Assembly (NCBI GenBank): GCA_016191555.1
Contig: JACPVX010000014.1
Location: 62,001-126,000 of the forward strand
From: Bacteroidota bacterium
Lineage (GTDB): Bacteria; Bacteroidota; Bacteroidia; Cytophagales; Cyclobacteriaceae
DNA length: 64,000 bases
Reading direction: 5' to 3'
Positions 40,837-43,447 of this stretch are shown one piece after another. Numbering within the stretch: the stretch's first letter is position 1; each line of letters begins with the position of its first letter. Made by a program: the position numbers and the translations under genes. The notes under the pieces were generated by a model, which saw nothing but the letters and a program-made list of their open reading frames with translations, had not been told where the DNA came from and did not search any database.

Positions 40837-40867
40837 TTGGATGAATTGGGGTATCAACCTATATTTG
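40837..40867 (+). promoter_or_regulatory. Promoter of the aldolase gene
   Basis: TTGG at 40837-40840 (-33) and TATATTTG at 40860-40867 (-7) are 20 nt apart. The TTG that opens the long reading frame at 40837 is therefore the -33 box, which supports the ATG at 40888 as the real start. Confidence 0.7.
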
Positions 40868-40887
40868 TCCCTCACTTAAAAAAACCT

Positions 40888-41961
40888 ATGGCTAGACCAA
40901 CCATCACCGAGTTACTTGGTAAAGATGCCGAGTCGCTTTTAACTCACAAAAGCAAGACAATTCCGAAAGAAAGTTTGCATTTGCCCGGCCACGATTTCGT
41001 GGACAGAATTTTTTCAATTTCCAATCGCAATCCACAAACCTTGCGGAGCTTGCAGGTAATGTTTGATAAAGGAAGATTAGGTAACACGGGTTTCCTTTCC
41101 ATCTTACCGATCGACCAAGGTATCGAACATAGCGCAGGTGCATCCTTCGCCAAAAACCCGATCTACTTCGATCCGGAAAATATCATCAAGTTGGCAATTG
41201 AAGGCGGATGCAATGCTGTGGCTACAACGTTCGGTGGGTTGGCGATGATGTCCAGAAAATATGCGCATAAAATTCCTTTCATTGTAAAAATCAATCACAA
41301 TGAATTGCTCACTTACCCTAACCGTGCTGATCAAATTATGTACGGATCAGTGGAAGACGCTTGGAATTTAGGCGCAGTAGCAGTGGGTGCTACCATTTAT
41401 TTCGGATCTGATAACGCAACTCGTCAAATTCAGGAAGTTTCTGCTGCGTTTGAGCGTGCGCATGAACTAGGTATGGCAACTATTTTATGGTGCTACACCC
41501 GCAATGATGCCTTCAAAAAGGACGGTGTTGATTACCATACCTCGGCTGACTTAACCGGTCAGGCCAATCACTTAGGTGTAACCATCCAAGCTGATATTAT
41601 CAAACAAAAATTAGCGACCAACAATGGCGGCTACAAAGCCTTGAACACAGGCACTAGCAGCTATGGTAAGTTGGACGAACGTATTTATACTGAACTTACT
41701 ACTGATCATCCGATTGACTTGTGTCGCTATCAAGTATTGAATTGCTACAACGGCCGTGCAGGTTTGATCAACTCCGGTGGTGATTCAAAAGGGGCTAGCG
41801 ATATGGCAGATGCGGTACGCACAGCGGTTATCAACAAGCGCGCAGGTGGTATGGGCTTGATTTCTGGAAGAAAGGCATTCCAACGTCCTTTGAAAGAAGG
41901 TGTTGAAATCCTTCAAGCCATTCAAGATGTGTACTTGGATAAGACGATTGATATTGCTTAA
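40888..41961 (+). CDS. fbaB: Class I fructose-bisphosphate aldolase (FbaB/DhnA type)
   Basis: 357 residues from ATG 40888; the frame is open upstream, but that part is promoter. The barrel-type sequence includes '[20 protein letters not shown]', '[13 protein letters not shown]', '[11 protein letters not shown]', '[13 protein letters not shown]' and '[21 protein letters not shown]' (marker: Asn-Ser-Gly-Gly-Asp-Ser-Lys-Gly). These match bacterial class I (Schiff-base) aldolases, which split fructose-1,6-bisphosphate. In many Bacteroidota a class II enzyme lies next to accD; here the class I form takes that place. It has its own promoter and is followed by accD after 115 nt. Confidence 0.9.
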
Positions 41962-41974
41962 TCAAAGAAGTTGA

Positions 41975-42030
41975 CAATTGGCAATAATCAGTTGACGAAC
42001 CAAATCTTGTCGATTGCTTATTGTCAATTG
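41975..42030. repeat. Imperfect inverted repeat between aldolase and accD
   Basis: CAATTGGCAATAA (41975-41987) and TTATTGTCAATTG (42018-42030) form 13-bp arms with one mismatch, separated by 30 nt. The loop also contains short TTGAC-type repeats. Function unknown; may be a hairpin or neutral low-complexity sequence. Confidence 0.4.
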
Positions 42031-42076
42031 TTGATTCATTGATTGATGTTCAAAGTTTCAAATTGATGAATTAATT

Positions 42077-42796
42077 ATGCCTTGGTTCAAACGGACAGAT
42101 AAAGGAATTCTTACCCCCACCGAATCGAAACGCGAAGTGCCGGATGGCCTTTGGTTTAAATCGCCAGGGGGAAAAATCATTCACACACGCGAATTAAAAA
42201 ACAACGCGTATGTAGTGCCGGAAGAAGATCTTCACGTAAAAATCGGCTCGGAAGAATACAAAACACAATTGAAAGATGCCGTTCGCACGGCTTACGGAAA
42301 AATCAATGGCTTGGATTTGTGTGTTGCCTGTATGGACTTCACCTTCATTGGCGGTTCGATGGGCTCGGTGGTAGGCGAAAAAATTGCGCGCGCTATCAAC
42401 CATTCACTCAAAACGAGAACACCCTTCCTGATGATTTCGCGCTCAGGTGGTGCTCGCATGATGGAAGCAGGACTTTCGTTAATGCAAATGGCAAAAACCT
42501 CCGCTCGTCTGGCTTTGCTGGATGAAGCGAAGATTCCATACATTTCTTTACTGACAGATCCCACTACCGGTGGAGTTACAGCATCTTACGCTATGCTGGG
42601 TGATTTTAATATTGCTGAACCCGGTGCCCTGATCGGCTTTGCCGGCCCACGCGTAATTCGTGAAACCATTGGCAAAGATTTACCCAAAGGTTTTCAAAGC
42701 GCTGAGTTCGTGTTGGAGCACGGTTTTCTAGATTTTATCATCGACCGAAGAAGCCTGAAACAGCGACTGAGCACACTACTCAAAATGCTTCAATAG
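42077..42796 (+). CDS. accD: Acetyl-CoA carboxylase carboxyltransferase beta subunit, zinc-ribbon lost
   Basis: 239 residues, against about 280-300 normally. The N-terminus '[19 protein letters not shown]' and the whole carboxyltransferase part ('[20 protein letters not shown]', '[22 protein letters not shown]'-type, '[16 protein letters not shown]', '[13 protein letters not shown]') match AccD closely. But the zinc ribbon, Cys-x2-Cys...Cys-x2-Cys in the family, reads Ser29-x2-Gly32...Val47-x2-Glu50. About 40 residues between 'GSEEY' and 'LKDAVRT' are missing. The frame is intact. With AccA, AccD forms the transferase that carboxylates acetyl-CoA to malonyl-CoA for fatty acid synthesis. Either this is a tolerant zinc-free form or a second, altered copy. 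It lies beside an aldolase gene, a common place for the ordinary accD in Bacteroidota. Confidence 0.85.
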
Positions 42797-42808
42797 TTTT
42801 TATTCACG

Positions 42809-43447
42809 GTGGCGGGGGTAGTTTGTATTGAATCGCATTACCTTCCTTCTATAGAATATTTGTGTGCCATTCTTCCATTTAAAACGGTGGAAATCGAAGT
42901 CTATGAACATTTCGAAAAGCAGAGTTTACGCAATCGGTGTTACATCAACACATCGCAGGGAAAACAGATGCTGATTTTGCCGGTTACGAACAAGCATGGC
43001 AAAACACCTGTTCATGAAATCCGCATAGACTATCAACAAAAGTGGCAAAACAACCATTGGCGAACCATCGAGTCAGCCTATCGTAATGCACCCTTTTTTG
43101 AGTATTATTCCGATGATCTAAAAAAAATCATCTACGAAAAGCACGAACATCTGATCGCTTTCAATCAAAAATTGCTGTCATTCTGTCTGCGAAAAATTGG
43201 GATGTCTATCCAAGTCAAAGAAACCATTACCTACCAAAAAGACCTCAATTCATCCATTTTGGATTTACGAGGAGTTATTTCGGCAAAAGAAGACTATAGA
43301 CATCGGTCATTCTATCAGCCTGTCGCCTATCAACAAGTGTTTGGCAACAATTTTGTAGCTAATCTCAGCTTCTTGGATTTGTTGTTTTGTGAAGGTCCGA
43401 ATGCGATCCGCATCATTCAATCGGCTGAGAGGAAATTGAACAAATAA
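42809..43447 (+). CDS. WbqC-family protein
   Basis: 212 residues from a GTG start, 12 nt after accD. The opening 'CIESHYLPSIEYLCAIL', the middle 'RNRCYINTSQGKQMLILPV', 'WRTIESAYRNAPFFEYYSDDL' (marker: Ala-Tyr-Arg-Asn-Ala-Pro-Phe-Phe) and the end 'LSFLDLLFCEGPNA' fit the WbqC-like family. Members occur in O-antigen and surface-glycan clusters, and the fold resembles nucleotide-binding enzymes, but the biochemical role is not settled. No sugar gene cluster is adjacent. It probably shares the accD transcript. Confidence 0.8.
   Translation: MAGVVCIESHYLPSIEYLCAILPFKTVEIEVYEHFEKQSLRNRCYINTSQGKQMLILPVTNKHGKTPVHEIRIDYQQKWQNNHWRTIESAYRNAPFFEYYSDDLKKIIYEKHEHLIAFNQKLLSFCLRKIGMSIQVKETITYQKDLNSSILDLRGVISAKEDYRHRSFYQPVAYQQVFGNNFVANLSFLDLLFCEGPNAIRIIQSAERKLNK

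Follow-up and report, generated by a model that had tools for sequence, protein, structure and literature searches.

The AccD protein encoded in the window, i.e. the whole stretch of 64,000 nucleotides analysed here, is, to judge from sequence comparisons, very probably the normal AccD of its clade, a form that does not depend on zinc. Its 40-residue deletion has another explanation, most likely an error of assembly or else a private lesion of recent date, and is not an adaptation. AccD generally figures as a zinc protein; in curated databases, we presume, zinc may already be marked as optional for the family. In the window protein, the CxxC...CxxC pattern is absent, with S29, G32, V47 and E50 in its place. 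The source assembly (hereafter G000) has 4.12 Mb in 91 contigs and is 76.7% complete; the window is positions 62001-126000 of its contig 9. Zinc-binding AccD forms are called C+ below, and zinc-free forms C-. The relevant features are the following:

40837..41961, + strand: neighbouring gene, presumably an aldolase gene (the name is taken from the earlier note); ORF, collinear in 4 of 4 relatives
42077..42796, + strand: accD, acetyl-CoA carboxylase carboxyltransferase beta subunit, 239 aa (TIGR00515, PF01039)
42146..42250, + strand: zinc-free ribbon, residues 24-58 (column alignment with C+ and C- AccD)
42161..42163, + strand: codon 29, TCG, Ser for zinc Cys 1 (alignment)
42170..42172, + strand: codon 32, GGA, Gly for zinc Cys 2 (alignment)
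42215..42217, + strand: codon 47, GTG, Val for zinc Cys 3 (alignment)
42224..42226, + strand: codon 50, GAA, Glu for zinc Cys 4 (alignment)
42259..42260, + strand: junction of a 120-bp in-frame deletion, in which the equivalent of residues 62-101 in the full-length relative L035 is lost (alignment, segment search)
42809..43447, + strand: neighbouring 212-aa ORF, which we take to be WbqC-like, with 54-62% identical counterparts in L257, L258 and L260

The accD frame is open over its 239 aa (42077-42796, +; ORF list and translation), and the carboxyltransferase (CT) blocks SGGARM, GGSMG and GFAGP can all be read directly in the protein. Profile searches gave a Carboxyl_trans match (PF01039, 6.1e-23, 81.6 bits, cut-off 22.3) and a TIGR00515 score of 291 bits (9e-87), under the cut-off of 317.45. 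Full-length C- relatives are above this cut-off (L035 341.3, L061 335.2 and L036 348 bits), so that the shortfall of the window protein probably comes mainly from its deletion. Nothing in the window matched the ribbon profile Zn_ribbon_ACC (PF17848) at E<=1, but this model fails to separate C+ from C-: against a cut-off of 24.5 bits, the controls scored 10.3 (C+ L037), 17.2 (C- L036) and 29.3 (C+ L055). As a C+ protein, L037, scores below a C- one, L036, the profile was dropped as a discriminator.

An earlier note on this DNA had read the frame as intact and the ribbon cysteines as Ser29, Gly32, Val47 and Glu50, and both readings stand (codons TCG, GGA, GTG and GAA). Its view of the cysteine loss as peculiar to this gene is not supported, since the same-genus loci and a large part of the Bacteroidota sequences read are zinc-free as well. 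The combination SGVE was found in 28 of the 29 same-genus accD loci read, the 29th (L007) being cut by a contig end. L116, from a genome of the same genus with a listed completeness of 100% (G202), likewise has SGVE, and the four residues are common to a second genus of the family (L115, L117). They are kept in 7/7 sequences compared, though their codons vary. Further sequences of the same family (L118-L120) share 91-92% identity with Algoriphagus AccD, which makes a member of Cytophagales of the Cyclobacteriaceae type the likely host. The predicted zinc-free ribbon is a trait of the lineage, and ordinary for its clade.

Between the window gene and L003, 9.5 nonsynonymous and 124.5 synonymous differences were counted over all ungapped codons, and 1 against 23 over codons 1-58, i.e. 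up to the end of the ribbon. For most pairs, synonymous sites are too close to saturation for a dN/dS ratio to be quoted. Few nonsynonymous and many synonymous changes indicate that the ribbon is maintained, and not decaying. The relaxed selection that had been envisaged for the window copy is not seen; within the window's genus, purifying selection on the ribbon is strong.

A search of G000, an assembly 76.7% complete, revealed no further accD at E<=10. The sole other AccD match there was a 524-aa frame on contig C45, with 32% identity, presumably PCC-beta-like. A search of 35 genomes of the same genus at E<=1e-20 gave a match in 31, with one accD place each; the gene is split over two contigs in G033 and present as a fragment only in G018. 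Three of the four genomes without a match are 77-84% complete, and one (G028) is listed at 90%. A CxxC copy was found at none of the same-genus loci read. These searches bear on the proposal that a normal accD lies elsewhere, the window gene being a degenerate or moonlighting copy that has lost its cysteines. Such a proposal can draw on the incompleteness of the assembly, which leaves room for a second accD copy in G000 alone. Yet the matching same-genus genomes listed at >=90% have one accD place each, those read are all of the same type (G016 is not among them, and G028 has no match), and the gene is under purifying selection, which makes a degenerate copy extremely unlikely.

Partner genes were searched for in the same assembly. 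accA, to which the earlier note had drawn attention, is present at 456.3 bits, above cut-off, as is accC at 645.2 bits. BCCP gave one match (G000:C88:15087-15278) at 40.9 bits, for a cut-off of 115.2 that 7 of 14 control genomes attained; accB proper may be absent from the assembly, or divergent.

The position beside the aldolase gene had been described as a usual accD site, and this was confirmed in 4/4 relatives compared. The window is collinear at about 34-46 kb with three same-genus genomes (L257, L258, L260), and collinearity with L259, from another genus of the same family, reaches as far as accD. This shared block indicates that the gene occupies its normal position. The sole accD found and the normal locus point to a lineage whose AccD would work without the Cys4 zinc site, in line with the option that the earlier note had thought worth testing. 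Between the aldolase gene and accD, at 41974-42031, lies an inverted repeat with 23-nt arms (83% complementarity) and a 12-nt spacer. A 26-nt pattern covering its left arm occurs only once in the window when <=3 mismatches are allowed. Either a terminator or a small mobile repeat would be possible.

The loss of a 40-residue stretch, also reported earlier, was verified: relative to L003, L004 and L005, exactly 40 codons (120 bp) are gone between Tyr61 and Lys62, at 42259/42260. Over 238 shared residues the window protein is 97.1-98.3% identical to these three, and the alignment is otherwise gapless. The deletion occurs in 1 of 229 distinct AccD rows; of the others, 223 are gapless over the 40 columns and 5 have a gap, and all 228 keep the CT-domain entry segment (L035 residues 62-101). 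Only the cysteine replacement is common to the genus, so that the two are separate events; attaching the deletion to the zinc story is not supported, as it is absent from the other 228 distinct sequences.

Could the shortened protein be functional, in a lineage without zinc where this species also dispenses with the CT-domain entry segment? The frame is open, the rest of the gene is under strong purifying selection, and a length of 120 bp, a multiple of three without a stop, also fits a functional deletion (one chance in three). However, an alignment of 33 relatives drawn from 80 named loci shows no variation at 10 of the 40 lost residues. Four AccD chains of solved structure align across the region, 2f9i with a 3-residue gap, and the deletion is unique among the 229. 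A functional short AccD is therefore very unlikely, and we do not read the deletion as an adaptation.

The deletion is best explained either by a mistake in the assembly or by a private lesion of recent date. The first of these, a segment dropped during genome assembly, has in our estimate slightly better than even chances. The assembly is fragmented into 91 contigs and 76.7% complete, and a segment rich in invariant residues has gone with no decay seen. Moreover, over about 19 kb around accD, where 22 frames were compared, the next largest deletion was 8 residues and the largest insertion 13. Each of these frames is matched in one or more of four relatives; antisense frames are among them, and beyond 46 kb the counterparts are from L257 only. 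The missing segment was found nowhere else in G000 with a 41-aa query that matches 6/6 other genomes. The junction itself speaks against an assembly error, as there is no N run or frameshift and no collapse-prone repeat was seen. By eye, the gap edges in the relatives' sequence share at most about one base of homology, and the junction sequence is unique within the window at <=2 mismatches.

A clean, in-frame gap with no evident repeat to mislead an assembler would also be expected of a real 120-bp deletion. The accD would then be inactive or weak, with malonyl-CoA made otherwise, e.g. by the carboxylase on C45, where the second carboxyltransferase-like frame (32% identity) is found, or the strain would be dying out. 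An inactive gene might show an excess of amino-acid changes, and none is clear on the window's branch. Among relatives, the lost segment has a pN of 0.01-0.05, like the rest (the columns counted include one C-terminal). In the CT part, nonsynonymous counts to the outgroup L010 are 24.2 for the window gene, 31.2 for L003 and 26.2 for L004. Slightly more change in the window gene was seen with L005 (12.5, vs 9.0 for L004-L005) and with L116 (30.6, vs 30.3 for L003-L116). With accA and accC retained, and the segment kept in the other 228 distinct sequences, we consider a real inactive or weak allele rather unlikely, and slightly favour the assembly error. Until reads confirm it, the deletion should not be treated as biology; it is a caution against a story built on a single assembly.

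We then compared AccD across the phylum. The sample comprised 247 genomes, of which 244 matched; the given loci and chosen regions were read, one or a few per family. The 249 AccD rows read (229 distinct) are only part of all matches. The sample is uneven, some rows being best matches to the window protein, and the counts below are not frequencies. Among the 229 distinct rows, 112 have all four cysteines (CCCC), 116 have 0-1 Cys, none has two or three, and one is truncated. C- forms were found in 25/25 named Flavobacteriaceae rows, and in the named rows of Bernardetiaceae (1/1), Reichenbachiellaceae (1/1) and Cyclobacteriaceae (2/2). C+ forms were found in named rows of Hymenobacteraceae (9), Spirosomataceae (5), Cytophagaceae (3), Flectobacillaceae (1) and Sphingobacteriaceae (15). 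Named rows without a family were C- in Cytophagales (3/3) and Flavobacteriales (1/1) and C+ in Sphingobacteriales (1/1), and the 12 named rows without an order included 7 C- and 5 C+. Cytophagales are zinc-free in part only, and one family, f50, is mixed, with one C- and one C+ row.

The AccD proteins of Flavobacteriaceae and Algoriphagus (L061, L071, L036 and others) have the zinc cysteines replaced by S/T, G, S/C and D. Like the window protein, they have one residue fewer after position 33 than the C+ forms; they differ from it in being full length, with Ser/Cys instead of Val at the third site and Asp instead of Glu at the fourth. Other types lack this one-residue shortening: VTDS, VTCS, DTSS, CTFS and S-DS, from other families of the phylum, and NSCD, from the same order. 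A lone Cys is present in 13 C- rows, so that zinc would not be held there in the usual four-ligand way. L225 (genome G203) reads C-T-F-S, with its lone Cys at site 1, and L176 (G165) reads S - D S, with a gap at site 2 and a C+ family-mate, L227; both are possible recent zinc losses. Alphaproteobacteria were considered as a further C- group and dropped, two plasmid copies (Ruegeria, Sphingomonas) being C+.

Two side observations were made in the phylum sample. Three of the 247 genomes, G285 and G293 (f29) and G255 (f48), listed as 99-100% complete, gave no AccD match at E<=1e-30, and may have another carboxylase or a very divergent AccD. At the same threshold most genomes gave one match to the AccD query, and ten f35 genomes gave two each (G077, G093, G109, G113, G120, G166, G185, G205, G213 and G229), either paralogues or split hits.

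How many times the cysteines were lost was approached with two trees. The quick tree contained 118 of the 249 rows, near-identical and short rows being dropped, and its support is the less trustworthy; it has at least 10 C+/C- changes, with 58 of 115 inner branches open. In this tree the VT rows form one starred group, and the DTSS, CTFS and S-DS rows fall in starred groups shared with C+ rows, which suggests several losses. The C- row L147 (G069, family f24) has a very long branch there (1.36 changes per column). The careful tree of the class, with 69 rows, L147 left out and a bootstrap that had not settled, requires at least 5 C+/C- changes. In AU tests, however, a single C- clade was not rejected, either for the 31 C- rows together (p 0.21) or for the 15 on the Cytophagales side (p 0.34), so that there may have been one loss or several within the class. 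The place of the window protein differs between the trees: its neighbours are L037 and L041, both C+, in the quick tree (85, not starred), and C- Algoriphagus in the careful one (89/70, not starred).

In the 105 C- ribbons defined by Gly32, L40, N43, V46, P48 and H53 are present at 100%, positions 49 and 50 are acidic in 100%, and P30 is found in 99%. W26 is present in 97% of C+ and in 100% of the 105, and H53 in 100% of both states, so that the ribbon seems to be kept as a structural unit. At the former ligand sites, a single acidic residue is accompanied by one to three Ser/Thr in 113 of the 116 C- rows, the exceptions being two VTCS rows and one CTFS row; since common descent may link most of the 105, the 113 should not be counted as independent.

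A mechanism can be proposed for a lineage in which a single accD was found and whose AccD would work without the Cys4 zinc site. The N-terminal ribbon would still fold as two hairpins, its CxxC knuckles turned into tight turns of the form S/T-P-x-G and V-x-P-E/D-D/E. A hydroxyl-carboxylate contact between Ser/Thr29 and Asp/Glu50 may stand in for zinc, and the AccD-AccA pair would move the carboxyl from carboxybiotin to acetyl-CoA as usual. We extend this to the phylum only tentatively, at a shade less than even confidence. AccD of Bacteroidota would exist in two nearly all-or-none states, the zinc-free one having arisen several times, mostly with a carboxylate and one or more hydroxyls as a metal-free lock. 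Whole groups, e.g. Flavobacteriaceae, would then make fatty acids by means of a zinc-independent carboxyltransferase and lack the mRNA feedback through the zinc finger that has been proposed for E. coli. Large groups without the site that nevertheless have the enzyme suggest that zinc is a replaceable structural element.

In the literature, the zinc finger of E. coli AccD is described as binding accA and accD mRNA and as also needed for catalytic activity (PMC3896788), a requirement that counts against a zinc-independent reading. The mRNA concept is noted elsewhere as having been challenged (PMC11602165), and another paper presents AccD of S. pneumoniae as the zinc-dependent subunit (PMC7678824). 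By title or start of abstract, no paper on a zinc-free AccD was found among the matches listed, most subscription journals lying outside the search.

As regards known structures, 2f9y and 2f9i, which we take to be the AccD of E. coli and of S. aureus, are homologous over their whole length to the full-length relative L035 (1.4e-74 and 1.8e-68). Both share with L035 the carboxyltransferase blocks and the register of the ribbon. Their aligned sequences carry CxxC...CxxC, whereas the window gene has S/G/V/E and 40 residues fewer.

The closest parallel is with bacterial ribosomal proteins. S4 and others exist in C+ and C- forms with a patchy distribution (PMC3087516), and in Table 2 of that study Bacteroidetes are C- for 7 of 8 ribosomal proteins and mixed (+,-) for L32. 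This fits a zinc-sparing tendency of the group. AccD resembles these proteins in having zinc-binding and apparently zinc-free states of one protein, patchily distributed, and, as with C- ribosomal proteins, some groups appear fixed for the Cys-less form (28/29 same-genus loci, the other being truncated, and 25/25 named Flavobacteriaceae rows). No genome with both AccD forms was found among G000 and the same-genus genomes searched. Judged by sequence, the zinc-free state is genuine, and of modest interest as the zinc site of an enzyme that has been switched throughout a clade. Pairs of C+ and C- AccD are ready material for asking what the ribbon does. The known C+/C- cases are ribosomal, whereas AccD is a subunit of a metabolic enzyme, and a zinc-free AccD would thus add an enzyme to that list.
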